Below, in pieces: positions 52,026 to 63,063 of a stretch of DNA of 64,000 nt. Numbering within the stretch: the stretch's first letter is position 1; each line of letters begins with the position of its first letter. The stretch is from Flavobacteriaceae bacterium PRS1. Lineage in GTDB: Bacteria; Bacteroidota; Bacteroidia; Flavobacteriales; Flavobacteriaceae. The position numbers and the translations under genes were made by a program. Where the stretch lies: the NCBI GenBank assembly GCA_003709165.1, contig RDRZ01000004.1, positions 62,001 through 126,000 on the forward strand, written 5' to 3'. Under the pieces are notes generated by a model that saw only the letters and a list, made by a program, of their open reading frames with translations, was not told the origin of the DNA and did no database searches.

Positions 52026-53195
52026 TTAATTATTTTCAACTTGTACAGTTTGCCCTTCTTCTACACGTCGAGCCCCTTCATTTATAACTTCAGTTCCGTT
52101 TTCAATTCCACTTAAAACTTCAATAACATCTCCTTGTGTTTTACCAGTTTGTATAATTGCTTTTTTAACTACCGCAATATTATCTTCTTGTTTATCTATT
52201 ATAACATAGATATATTGTTCCCCTTTTGAATTTTCCGAAACAATACTTTGAGGAATCAGCAATGCTTTTTTGTTGGTATAATCGTTGATTTTTAATTTGA
52301 CAGTAAGGTTTAGTTTGATGCTTTTATCCTTATTTGGCACAGCAATTTCTACTTTAAATGTTCTGTTTGCAGGATTGATATAATTACTTGCCTGACGTAT
52401 TTTTGCATGAATTGTTTTTCCTAAAACAGGAAATTCTACTATTACAGTTTTGTTTTTAACCACAGTTAAGATATTACTTTCGGGCACATTGGTTTCTATA
52501 TACATATTATCCAGATTAACAATACGCATAAGTTGAGATTGACCTGGAGCGACAACGCTCCCTTGTTCGGATATTATATCATCTATTGTTCCAGAAAAAG
52601 GAGCTTTAACAATTGTTTTATCCAGTTGAATTTGAATTTGATTAACCATTTGTTGTTGTACTTCGAAATTGGATTTTGCTTGTAAATATTGCATTTCGCT
52701 TCCGATGTTTTGCTTCCATAATCGGTCTTGGCGTTCAAAAGTAGTTTTAGCCAAATCCGACCGGATTTGTAATTGTGCCAGTTGTTGACTTAATCCGCCA
52801 TCGTCAATTTTTGCTAAAATCTGCCCTTTTTTTACATATTGTCCTTCTCTAACATAAACTTTAGAGAGTATTCCAGCATATTCCGGATAAATTACTAAAA
52901 GGTTTTTTGTGCTTACATTACCCTGTAATTCCAAATAATGATTAAATACTTCTTCTTTTACGGTAAACGTTGAAATTAAAGCAACTTTTTTTGTGGTATC
53001 TAATTCATCAATTTTGGCATCGAGTTGTTTTAACTGCTCAACGATTTCTATTTGTTTCGAAATTATCTGGTCTTTTTTAGCTCTAATTGCTTCTAAATTA
53101 TTTGTAGCTATCACGTCTTCGACAGATTTTTTCTTGTCAGATCCGCAAGAAAAAATCAGTATTGTTAGAACTAGTATTGTATATATGTGTTTCAT
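52026..53195 (-). CDS. efflux RND periplasmic adaptor (membrane fusion) lipoprotein
   Basis: A 389-residue HlyD/AcrA-type adaptor anchored by a lipobox (TILIFSCGSD, Cys17). A coiled-coil hairpin lies at about residues 25-65 and 135-180, a lipoyl-like half motif in VYVREGQYVKKGQILAKIDD and its partner IVKAPFSGTIDDIISEQGSV, then beta-barrel and membrane-proximal domains. It bridges the pump and the TolC-like channel. It follows the tolC-like gene after a 124-base gap that contains a REP-like repeat. Confidence 0.92.
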   Translation of the reverse strand: MKHIYTILVLTILIFSCGSDKKKSVEDVIATNNLEAIRAKKDQIISKQIEIVEQLKQLDAKIDELDTTKKVALISTFTVKEEVFNHYLELQGNVSTKNLLVIYPEYAGILSKVYVREGQYVKKGQILAKIDDGGLSQQLAQLQIRSDLAKTTFERQDRLWKQNIGSEMQYLQAKSNFEVQQQMVNQIQIQLDKTIVKAPFSGTIDDIISEQGSVVAPGQSQLMRIVNLDNMYIETNVPESNILTVVKNKTVIVEFPVLGKTIHAKIRQASNYINPANRTFKVEIAVPNKDKSIKLNLTVKLKINDYTNKKALLIPQSIVSENSKGEQYIYVIIDKQEDNIAVVKKAIIQTGKTQGDVIEVLSGIENGTEVINEGARRVEEGQTVQVENN

Positions 53196-53220
53196 GTGTT
53201 TGTATTTAATGTTTTTTAAT

Positions 53221-53256
53221 GGTCATCCCGATAATCATCGGAACTATTCGCTAATA
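53221..53256. repeat. REP-like repeat, copy A (in the tolC-adaptor gap)
   Basis: GGTCATCCCGATAATCATCG and the following bases form an imperfect CCGAT/ATCGG hairpin. It is about 90 percent identical to the copy at 57398-57433, including the downstream ACT-TTCG-TAATAA part. Confidence 0.6.
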
Positions 53257-53318
53257 AATATTCCTTTTGGATATAAAGCTTTTTTCATAAGCTCGATTCA
53301 TAATGATTTGGTTTCGTA

Positions 53319-56368: not shown

Positions 56369-57372
56369 CCCCCAATAGTAATCATACTTCTATTTTGAGT
56401 ATGAAGTTTTGGCTCTTGTAATTTTTTCAAGGTATCCATTCCGCCTCTAACTTTTAATTTTGCTTGTACTGCTTTTTCAATTATAGGGCCTATCGATTTC
56501 CCTGCGCGAAGTGTTGTAAGTAAATCTGATTCGGTTGCAGAAAATAAACAGTTTTTTAAGTATCCGTTGGCTGTTAGCCTTAGCCTGTTGCAAGTATCAC
56601 AAAAGTGGTTAGTCACAGAGCTTATAACCGCAAATGAGCCTTTATAACCTTTAATCTTATAATTTTTTGAGGTATCATTTGGAGCATCTTGTAATCTTTC
56701 AATTTGTTCTTCAGAATAAAAACTATTTAGTTTTTTCATTATTTCTGCATAAGAAACCATCTTTTTCATATCCCATTTATTACCATCAAAAGGCATAAAT
56801 TCAATAAAACGAAGAGATACTTGAAGGTTTTTTGTGAGCTGAACCAAATCTATTATTTCGTCATCATTAAAGCCTTTTATCATAACAGTATTAATTTTTA
56901 CTTTAAAGCCTTCAGAAACCAAAAGCAAAATATTATTATAAACTTTTTCAAAATCGTTACGACGTGTAATTTCTTTAAACTTTGCTGCATCTAAAGTATC
57001 TAAACTCACATTAATATTTTGTAATCCATTTTCCTTAAACGTTTCAATAAATTTATCTACAATAACTGCATTAGTAGAGATAGAAAGTTCTACTGGCAAT
57101 GAGGCCAATTTTTCTAAAATAACAGGAATGTCTTTGCGCATCAAGGGTTCGCCTCCGGTTAACCTTATTTTAGTAACTCCGTTTTCAACAAATGTTTTTG
57201 CTATAGTATATATTTCCTCACAGGTCATTAAACTTGATTTCGGAGATAATAAAACGCCTTCTTCCGGCATACAATAGGTACATCGTAAATTACAGCGTTC
57301 TATAAGTGAGATGCGTAAATATGTATGCACTCTGCCAAAAGTATCTGTCATTATGTTGTTATTCTGTTTCAT
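56365..57372 (-). CDS. moaA: GTP 3',8-cyclase (molybdenum cofactor step 1)
   Basis: A 335-residue radical-SAM enzyme that with MoaC turns GTP into cyclic pyranopterin monophosphate. The N-terminal cluster is C27, C31, C34 (ERCNLRCTYCMPEEG), the C-terminal cluster lies in NHFCDTCNRLRL and LKNCLF, and the chain ends with the Gly-Gly tail (MITIGG) needed for activity. The second Met (residue 8) is the more usual start. Last gene of the operon, separated from moaCB by 101 bases with a REP-like repeat. Confidence 0.95.
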   Translation of the reverse strand: MKQNNNIMTDTFGRVHTYLRISLIERCNLRCTYCMPEEGVLLSPKSSLMTCEEIYTIAKTFVENGVTKIRLTGGEPLMRKDIPVILEKLASLPVELSISTNAVIVDKFIETFKENGLQNINVSLDTLDAAKFKEITRRNDFEKVYNNILLLVSEGFKVKINTVMIKGFNDDEIIDLVQLTKNLQVSLRFIEFMPFDGNKWDMKKMVSYAEIMKKLNSFYSEEQIERLQDAPNDTSKNYKIKGYKGSFAVISSVTNHFCDTCNRLRLTANGYLKNCLFSATESDLLTTLRAGKSIGPIIEKAVQAKLKVRGGMDTLKKLQEPKLHTQNRSMITIGG

Positions 57373-57397
57373 GTCTCAATATTTATTGATTGTCAAA

Positions 57398-57433
57398 GGT
57401 CATCCCGATAACTATCGGGACTGTTCGTTAATA
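57398..57433. repeat. REP-like repeat, copy B (between moaCB and moaA)
   Basis: CCCGATA-AC-TATCGGG forms a perfect 7-base stem. The 36-base unit matches the copy at 53221-53256 with few differences. Confidence 0.6.
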
Positions 57434-57473
57434 ATCATTTTCGTTGAATAATAAAATTCGTGTGCTCGTTTCA

Positions 57474-58385
57474 TTAGTAGTGTCTTGCTCCTTTTAAAAT
57501 TCTGAAAATGTGTAAAACTGAAGGAAAAATAGCCTCCATAGACTCTCTTGCTCCATTTGTGGAACCTGGCAACGCCAAGACCAAACTGTTTTTTATAGTT
57601 CCGGCAACACTTCTTGAAAGCATAGAATATGGCGTTCGGTCTTGCCCATAATTACGAATAGCTTCTTCAATTCCTGAAATTCTTCGGTCTAACAAGGGCA
57701 ATAAAGCTTCAGGTGTTACGTCTCTTTTTGATAGCCCTGTTCCACCAGTAAAAATAATAAGATCAATTCCTTTTTCCTGATAGCTTTTAGCTTTTTCCTG
57801 AATGATTTCTTTTTCGTCTGGAATAATAATATAATCTGAAATTTTCACATCACAGTCTTCCAATTTTTTAATAATTGCCTTACCAGCTTTATCTTCTTTT
57901 TGTCCTGCCGAAATTGTATCGGAACACACAATTACCGCTGCTGTTAAGTCTTTTCTAAAACGGTCTCTAAAATCGGACTTTCCACCTTTTTTACTCAATA
58001 GTTTTATGTGATGAATCTCGATGCCTTTATCAATAGGTTTTAGCATGTCGTACATATTTAAAGCCACAATACTTGCACCATGCATAGCTTCAACTTCGAC
58101 ACCAGTTTTGTAAATGGTTTTTACAGTAACTATAATTATGATTTCCAATTCATTTATTTGGTATTCAACAGAAGTGAATTCAATTGGTAAAGGATGGCAA
58201 TCTGGAAGCAAATCCGGTGTTTTTTTAATACCGAGTAAACCTGCTGCTTTGCTCATTGCAAAGACATTTCCTTTTGGAACTGTATCATTTTCAATGGCTA
58301 CAATAGTTTCAGGTTTACTGACTCTTACTATGGCTTGCGCAATTGCAGTACGAAGTGTATTAGATTTGTTTGTTATATCGACCAT
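57474..58385 (-). CDS. moaCB: bifunctional MoaC/MoaB (cyclic pyranopterin synthase plus molybdopterin adenylyltransferase-type domain)
   Basis: A 303-residue fusion. Residues 1-145 match Moa[59 protein letters not shown]. The rest matches MoaB/Mog[51 protein letters not shown] and [11 protein letters not shown]. MoaC completes cyclic pyranopterin formation; the MoaB part adenylylates molybdopterin or is a paralogue of that enzyme. The fusion is common in Bacteroidota. Three bases separate it from moaE. Confidence 0.93.
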
Positions 58386-60774: not shown

Positions 60775-61539
60775 TTAAAGCGTTATTAATTTTACTGAAG
60801 CTATAACCAATACTATTGCCAATAAGTATCTTAAATTCTGATTGTTCATTTTTTTACTTCCTAAGTAAGCTCCAAAAAACCCTCCAACTATGGCAATAGC
60901 GACTAAAGCAAAAGACTCTATATTTATTAAAACTCCACTACTTATTTGTCCTACTAATCCTGATGCAGAGTTTACCCAAATAAACAGGGCTGAAACTGCT
61001 GCAGCTTCTTTCATTTTTCCCCAATGCAACAACAGGATTATTGGTGTTAGAATAATGCCTCCACCAATACCTATTAATCCAGAAAAGAAACCAATTATTC
61101 CACCAACAACTATTCCTTGCCAAAGTTTTATGTCCTTAATTTTAGTGCTTTCTTTCCTGCCTGACGGCAAGGCAGGTCCGAATACATTCAGCATTTTAAG
61201 GATTGCAAAAATTAACAAAACACCTAATATTTTTTTATAAAGTGAAGCGTCAACTTCAATCATTCCACCAATAAAAGCCATCGGAATTGAAGCAATAGCA
61301 AATGGAATAAACAATTTTCTGTTAAAAAACCCTTCTTTGTAATAATAATAAAACGCAATAGCTGACACAAAAATATTAAGCAATAATGCTGTTGGTTTCA
61401 TGACTTCAGGTGCAAAAGAAAATAATGCCATTAAAGCCAGATAACCACTTGCTCCACCATGACCAACACTTGCATATAAAAACGATACAACAGGCAGAAT
61501 TAGTAAAAAAAGCCAAATATGGTCTATGTCAAAAATCAT
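60775..61539 (-). CDS. TauE/SafE-family anion exporter or permease
   Basis: A 254-residue membrane protein with about eight hydrophobic helices. The duplicated signature is visible (YASVGHGGASGYLALMALF in the first half, GFFSGLIGIGGGIILTPIIL in the second). The family moves sulphite, sulphoacetate and related anions. Embedded in a molybdenum cofactor operon, it might serve molybdate or a product of a molybdoenzyme such as sulphite; both are inference. A loop segment (GPALPSGRKES, about residues 122-132) is encoded by a GC-rich palindromic repeat. Its ATG overlaps the stop of the reconstructed modE gene (ATGA). Confidence 0.85.
   Translation of the reverse strand: MIFDIDHIWLFLLILPVVSFLYASVGHGGASGYLALMALFSFAPEVMKPTALLLNIFVSAIAFYYYYKEGFFNRKLFIPFAIASIPMAFIGGMIEVDASLYKKILGVLLIFAILKMLNVFGPALPSGRKESTKIKDIKLWQGIVVGGIIGFFSGLIGIGGGIILTPIILLLHWGKMKEAAAVSALFIWVNSASGLVGQISSGVLINIESFALVAIAIVGGFFGAYLGSKKMNNQNLRYLLAIVLVIASVKLITL
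61156..61176. repeat. REP-like palindrome inside the TauE/SafE coding region
   Basis: CCTGCCT-GACGGCA-AGGCAGG, a 7-base GC-rich stem. It keeps the reading frame and encodes a short loop between membrane helices. Confidence 0.65.
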
Positions 61540-61875
61540 AATTTATTTATCTTTAAAACCTGTTCGTCTAAAAATTTCCAACAGTTTTTATTGATACTTT
61601 CAAAAGCAATAACTAAAGATTTTCCATAAGGTGTTAATTGAGCCCCCCCCCCCTCCTTTACCACCAATATTAGAAATTGTAACAGGTTTTTTTGCTGCCT
61701 TATTTACAGTATCGATAAGATGCCAAGCCTTTTTGTAAGACATTTTTAAGGTTTTAGCAGCCTTTGATAAAGACCCTGTTTTTTCAATAGCTTTTAACAA
61801 ACGCATTCTTCCTTCACCTAATAAAACGTTGTTGTTAGTTTCAATCCAAATTCTGCTTTTAATTTTATATACCAT
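61536..61875 (-). pseudogene. modE: ModE-like winged helix-turn-helix regulator, out of frame at a G11 tract
   Basis: The N-terminal 79 residues match the DNA-binding domain of ModE: RIWIETNNNVLLGEGRMRLL, then KTGSLSKAAKTLKMSYKKAW and SNIGGKGGGG. The conserved glycine loop is encoded by an 11-base G run (61643-61653 on the minus strand). With one G fewer the frame continues as AQLTPYGKSLVIAFESINKN to a TGA at 61536-61538 that overlaps the tauE start (ATGA), exactly as in an intact operon. The current frame instead ends at about 61600. The molybdate-binding domain of classic ModE is absent, as in short ModE-like regulators. Phase variation, decay or a sequencing error are all possible. Confidence 0.85.
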
Positions 61876-61881
61876 TCTGCT

Positions 61882-63063
61882 TTAGTTTATGGGTAATATA
61901 ATTACTTCAACATCATCATTAATATTAATTGCATTTATAGATTCTGGCACATAAACAAAAGAATTTGCCAAAGCAAAAGTGTGAAGCATTGCAGAGCTTT
62001 GCCCTTCTAATATTGTTACATTTCCGTTCTTTAAAATAGCTTTTAAAAACTGTGCTCTATCTCCTTTTTTAATATATTCTGAATTCGATTTTGCAATTAC
62101 TTTAGTTAGCGAGTAATCTGAATTTCCAGCTATTTTTTGCAATGCAGAATTTACATATATATAGAAACAACTCAAGGCAGCAGCAGGATTTCCAGGAAGC
62201 GCAAATATTGTAGTGCCTTCTTTTACTCCAAAAAACAAAGGCTTCCCAGGTTTTTGTTTTACCTTATAGAAAATTTCTTTTACACCAAGCTCAATTAAAG
62301 CTTTGCCAACAAAATCGTAATCGCCAACCGAAATTCCACCGGTAATTATAATCATATCATTTTTTTTAATGACTTTGTCTAACTTTGCTAAAGTATTAGT
62401 ATAGTTATCGTTGATTTTATGTTGTGAAATATTTGTAAAACCGAGACTGCTTAAAGCATTTAATAACATTATAGAATTACTTTCATATATTTTGCCATAA
62501 GGCAAAGACTTCCCAGCTTTAATAAGTTCGTCTCCTGTAACAATAACTGCAATTGAAGGTTTTTTATAAACTTCAACTTCGGTTATTCCTAATGAAGTTA
62601 AATAACCAATGGAAGCAGGAGTTAATTTTATTCCTTTTTTTAATGCAACTTTTCCCTTCTTAATTTGTTCGCCTAATGGGCGAATGTTTTTACCTTTTGA
62701 AACGACATCATCAATTTCAATTTTTTGCCCATCCACAGTAACTTTTTCTTGCATAATTACGGCATTAGCTGTTTCTGGTACTGCTGCTCCAGTAAAAATG
62801 CGTACAGTATCACCTGTTTTTAAAATAGGCTGATTCTCATCGCCAGCTTTAACCTCATCTATTAAATTGTAAGTTGTTTTATCGTGAATATTAATTGCAT
62901 AGCCATCCATTGCAGATTGATTAAAAGGAGGCATATTTATTGGTGAAAATACATCTTCAAACAATACAAAGCCACAAGTGTTTACAACATTTTTAGTTTC
63001 TTTAAATTCTAAAGGGGAAGTATTTTCTTGTACAGCTTTAATAGCTTGTTCAACAGTAATCAT
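61882..63063 (-). CDS. moeA: molybdopterin molybdenumtransferase
   Basis: A 393-residue MoeA that inserts molybdate into adenylated molybdopterin. MPPFNQSAMDGYAI near residue 44, GDTVRIFTGAAVPETANAVI, the MPT-binding domain TGDELIKAGKSLPYGKIYES with IIITGGISVGDYDF, and KQKPGKPLFFG plus ALPGNPAAALSCFYIYV are all typical. First gene of the Mo cofactor operon, 6 bases ahead of modE and just downstream of a ModE-box-like palindrome. Confidence 0.95.
   Translation of the reverse strand: MITVEQAIKAVQENTSPLEFKETKNVVNTCGFVLFEDVFSPINMPPFNQSAMDGYAINIHDKTTYNLIDEVKAGDENQPILKTGDTVRIFTGAAVPETANAVIMQEKVTVDGQKIEIDDVVSKGKNIRPLGEQIKKGKVALKKGIKLTPASIGYLTSLGITEVEVYKKPSIAVIVTGDELIKAGKSLPYGKIYESNSIMLLNALSSLGFTNISQHKINDNYTNTLAKLDKVIKKNDMIIITGGISVGDYDFVGKALIELGVKEIFYKVKQKPGKPLFFGVKEGTTIFALPGNPAAALSCFYIYVNSALQKIAGNSDYSLTKVIAKSNSEYIKKGDRAQFLKAILKNGNVTILEGQSSAMLHTFALANSFVYVPESINAININDDVEVIILPIN

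Follow-up and report, generated by a model that had tools for sequence, protein, structure and literature searches.

The ModE-like gene and its operon

The window, the whole stretch of 64,000 nucleotides that was analysed, contains a molybdenum cofactor operon with the gene order moeA-modE-tauE-mobA-moaD-moeB-moaE-moaC/B-moaA, in which the modE-like gene is second (Table 1). The wing or glycine loop of this gene was read directly on the minus strand as an uninterrupted run of eleven G (GGA-G11-CTC) in the context ...AAT ATT GGT GGT AAA GGA GGGGGGGGGGG CTC AAT..., in agreement with a preliminary description that had reported a ModE-like domain with its GGKGGGG loop written as 11 G. The frame that begins at the start codon at 61875 no longer follows ModE from the loop onward and reaches a stop at 61600, approximately 16 codons past the tract, giving an open reading frame of around 91-93 residues with the C-terminus ...GGKGGGGGSINTLWKIFSYCF. 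The ModE continuation, AQLTPYGKS..., is found in another frame, which reads GGGAQLTPYGKSLVIAFESINKNCWKFLDEQVLKINKL up to a TGA at 61538-61536 that overlaps the ATG at 61539-61537 of the following TauE-family gene (ATGA). The frame is therefore broken by one surplus G, as the preliminary description had also stated. The C-terminal half beyond the tract gave no sign of decay and in this second frame agreed with the protein of the nearest relative, G001; together with the intact relatives this indicates that the gene was intact until recently. The tract lies within the coding frame and its length sets that frame, which is the arrangement seen at a phase-variable locus.

Table 1. Features of the cofactor operon in the window
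Feature	Position	Strand	Basis or remark
moeA, immediately upstream in the operon	61882..63063	-	Pfam MoeA_N, MoCF_biosynth, MoeA_C
ModE-like single-domain regulator as written, cut short just past the Gly loop	61600..61875	-	HTH_1, TIGR00637 partial
G11 tract	61643..61653	-	In ModE-like gene
ModE C-terminal half in the other frame (GGGAQLTPYGKS...INKL, stop), undamaged	61536..61652	-	Matches relative's protein
TauE/SafE-family permease, ATG overlapping modE stop	60775..61539	-	PF01925; ATGA overlap
Remaining cofactor operon: mobA, moaD, moeB, moaE, moaC/B, moaA	56365..60774	-	NCBIfam; Pfam for mobA

The truncated frame matched HTH_1 with an E-value of 2.6e-5, which is under the Pfam cut-off, and aligned to positions 2-63 of TIGR00637 with 66 bits, where the curated cut-off is 98.5 bits. 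The intact short homologs of the phylum sample also all fell under the TIGR00637 cut-off, with a maximum of approximately 91 bits, indicating that this cut-off selects full-type domains; the gene was accordingly filed as ModE-like and not as a curated member. A winged helix-turn-helix with SYKKAW and a GGKGGGG loop followed by (A/T)xLTxYG was found across two frames in the window and within a single frame in G001. The winged helix-turn-helix, SYKxAW and the GGKGGGG-A-LT-YG loop are shared with the ModE N-terminal domain (TIGR00637; Escherichia coli ModE, PDB 1B9M/1O7L; single-domain PDB 2IJL), and the intact copy of G001 matched 2IJL at 1.1e-16 and 1O7L/1B9M at 1.7e-12. Unlike E. coli ModE, the gene is approximately 112 residues long and lacks molybdate-binding domains, and the window copy stops just past the loop. 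No C-terminal Mop/TOBE domains were found, the G001 gene of approximately 112-114 residues having no further domain, and the gene is not classed as a full molybdate sensor. In E. coli ModE the region past the wing loop continues into a helix used for dimerisation, so a product without this part is probably inactive. If the frame break is real, translation would terminate 61 bases short of the tauE start, without the overlap, and coupling to tauE may thereby be lost. A literature search on the function of the ModE loop returned nothing useful.

Rarity of the tract and comparison within the genus

The genome had been described as AT-rich, consistent with the GC content of 32% measured for the window, in which no other run of G or C exceeds 5. 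The genes present and the related genomes point to a member of the Bacteroidota, probably of the Flavobacteriales. Across the assembly of 2,416,480 bases the G11 tract is the sole G/C run of at least 8, followed by four runs of G7; a repertoire of such tracts, which is usual but not required for phase variation, is thus absent from the remainder of the 2.4-Mb assembly. The codon GGG makes up 10.9% of the glycine codons in the window, and since ten consecutive Gs need three GGG codons in a row, the chance is approximately 0.0013 per given triple.

The preliminary description had proposed that the tract be compared in close relatives, and had named mixed glycine codons without length variation as the result that would speak against its interpretation. 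In G001, which belongs to the same genus but is a distinct species, the loop reads GGA GGT GGA GGA GCT within an open frame of approximately 112-114 residues, and the loops of G002 (GGT GGT GGA GGC) and G003 (GGA GGA GGA GGT) are also intact. Mixed codons, an intact frame and no long tract were therefore found in all three genus members that have the gene, and mixed codons are also seen in the remaining homologs of the order, so that a tract kept at varying length was not seen among these relatives. The result named in advance was largely obtained, holding for 3/3 genus members and nearly all other relatives.

Apart from the tract, 2 bases between 61571 and 61875 distinguish the gene from that of G001; over 61567-62340 the count is 10 substitutions, to which the tract adds 3. 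The three differences within the tract are all glycine-codon third positions changed to G, with the one surplus G beside them, and all are packed into 11 bp. Of the third-position differences in the gene, 3/4 are within the three tract codons (P ~2e-5, calculated post hoc), and a scan for a cluster of such density across the whole high-identity patch gave P 0.04, making the clustering a moderate anomaly. This pattern fits poorly with independent drift and is better explained by a single local event or by an error. Separately, the patch itself (61428-62340) has approximately 98-99% identity to G001 with flanks of roughly 90%, which suggests that there may have been recent recombination between species or strong local conservation.

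A sequencing error had been put forward as the main alternative, and at the clustered changes to G this remains a live explanation. In that case the surplus G, if not the entire tract, would be a consensus error and the cells would carry an intact mixed-codon loop like that of G001, a reading that we place a little short of even odds. The assembly is in 61 contigs and is 85% complete, and three changes to G with one G added, within 11 bp of sequence otherwise nearly identical to G001, is what such an error could produce. Illumina reads are known to contain errors in GG-rich contexts (PMC3622629), and with two-colour chemistry T is over-called as G (PMC13218037), while among the matches listed implausible poly-G runs occur in many public draft genomes, often near contig ends. 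Against this, substitution miscalls add no base, and the site is in the interior of a contig that is ≥126 kb long, not at its end. Approximately 14 kb aligned at >90% to G001 without any other gene-internal frame-shifting indel, the other gaps lying at gene edges or in intergenic sequence; generic assembly indel noise was rejected for this reason, as the genes compared keep their frame otherwise. The G001 loop sequence GGAGGTGGAGGA is present intact four times in the assembly, on C7 (twice), C10 and C43, with one copy on the same contig as the tract, and a systematic motif-driven miscall was therefore judged unlikely. These four are among about 41 matches to GGHGGHGGHGGH that were assembled intact in the genome.

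Survey of ModE loops

An order sample of 396 genomes gave a match in 41, with 42 matches listed, and a phylum sample of 395 genomes gave approximately 108 listed matches; 83 loops of the ModE family were read at the DNA level. Among the 42 order matches, only the present genome (G000) had a close homolog whose frame was shortened, the others being mostly at least 111 residues and the other short frame being a weak partial match of 77 residues in G045. Among the strong phylum matches the profile alignment ended at position 64, within the loop, only in G000 and G654. The G654 gene runs on in frame past the loop, leaving G000 as the only frame break at the loop among the approximately 108 phylum matches. 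In G654 (L229, C39:2720-2851) the ModE glycine loop is fused in frame to an apparent later molbindin part of a longer ModE, as though the loop region had undergone an internal deletion or been misassembled.

Besides G11, the only runs of at least 8 in the 83 loops were a G9 in G613 (L256, C44:15358) and a G8 in G647 (L236, C1:306800-308000), both in frame and in distant genomes, the G647 match being located on a single 7.0-Mb contig. These runs indicate that G runs arise sporadically in the loop without a frame break, and both loci are candidates for slippage studies. Pattern scans of the class and phylum samples gave one further ModE, the G9 gene of G613, and a collection-wide DNA scan for GGxGGxAARGG+G9 gave no ModE-like gene by eye among at least 119 places listed. 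Pattern matches in G924 and G995 were rejected as ModE because they are glycine-rich repeat proteins.

Ordinary gene loss, in which a fixed frameshift marks the onset of pseudogene formation, would be consistent with a stop approximately 16 codons past the tract and with a regulator that is perhaps dispensable, given its match in few genomes of the order sample. There is however no second lesion, and the main part of the gene has one other third-position difference from G001, so that only a very recent loss would be possible; we consider this reading unlikely.

The preliminary description had raised the possibility of a phase-variable switch, which the comparisons do not bear out. Changes in tract length would in that case turn ModE on and off with a selected effect on the molybdenum-cofactor genes. 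A length of 11 bases is within the slipping range, each base changes the frame, and the gene is otherwise undamaged. Against a switch, the tract is missing in the genus and in nearly all of the family, and almost every other ModE gene in the survey has an open frame; to our knowledge a molybdate regulator is also unlike the usual targets of phase variation, which are surface or restriction-modification functions. Runs of 9C in mycobacteria produce >1% frameshifts (PMC10159617), and since a long G run would be expected to slip, variation may exist in a population with the tract. Poly-G/C contingency loci, such as those of Campylobacter jejuni, also have an intragenic G tract that sets the frame, but the tract here is isolated, not conserved and without a repertoire, and its target is a metabolic regulator. 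A single tract of at least 8 in the genome compares with 29 loci with G/C runs of at least 7 in C. jejuni NCTC11168 (PMC4965091). At a contingency locus one would expect the tract to persist in relatives or to have counterparts elsewhere in the genome; neither holds, which gives no support for selected switching, and true phase variation is considered improbable. A broader proposal, in which G tracts arise repeatedly in the conserved four-glycine wing loop (G8 in G647, G9 in G613 and G11 here) and reversible slippage acts as a switch for the cofactor operon in this lineage, is considered highly improbable.

Origin of the tract

The G11 tract is best explained as a private and very recent homopolymer event in one genome, either a real slip or a local error, and not as an evolved switch (probability approximately 0.75). 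This is supported by the tract itself, the frame break, the intact relatives and a gene that shows no decay in its other parts. The ModE wing loop requires four consecutive glycine codons before alanine or threonine, and third-base changes to G can turn this loop into a pure G run that then readily gains or loses a G. In the present genome the loop would have become G10-like and acquired one surplus G, truncating the ModE-like regulator before its C-terminal helix; the order of these events is one that we infer. Consensus error and recent gene loss are both arms of the private-event explanation, and the confidences given to them overlap with it. The presence of the surplus G, or of the whole tract, in living cells is considered slightly favoured; if the tract is real, its eleventh G could still stem from stutter in the library.

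Draft genomes contain private homopolymer frameshifts and consensus errors, which are likewise single-base, homopolymer-linked breaks of an otherwise intact gene in one genome; the present case differs in that the surplus base has three base differences beside it. If the tract is real and switching, it would show a metal-cofactor regulator to be phase-variable in a group for which we know of no familiar G-tract switching. As it stands, the locus is a caution that a glycine-rich loop can mimic a switch through a single private frameshift or consensus error, most of which is resolved by examining relatives.

Two further features were observed in the window. The TauE-family gene contains a palindrome-like 21-mer, CCTGCCTGACGGCAAGGCAGG, at 61156-61176 as an in-frame 21-bp insertion, which is absent in G001, occurs as one copy in the window and is possibly a small mobile REP-like element in coding sequence. 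Dispersed short repeats at approximately 53185-53304 and 57352-57479 have matches on many contigs of each of the three genus relatives.
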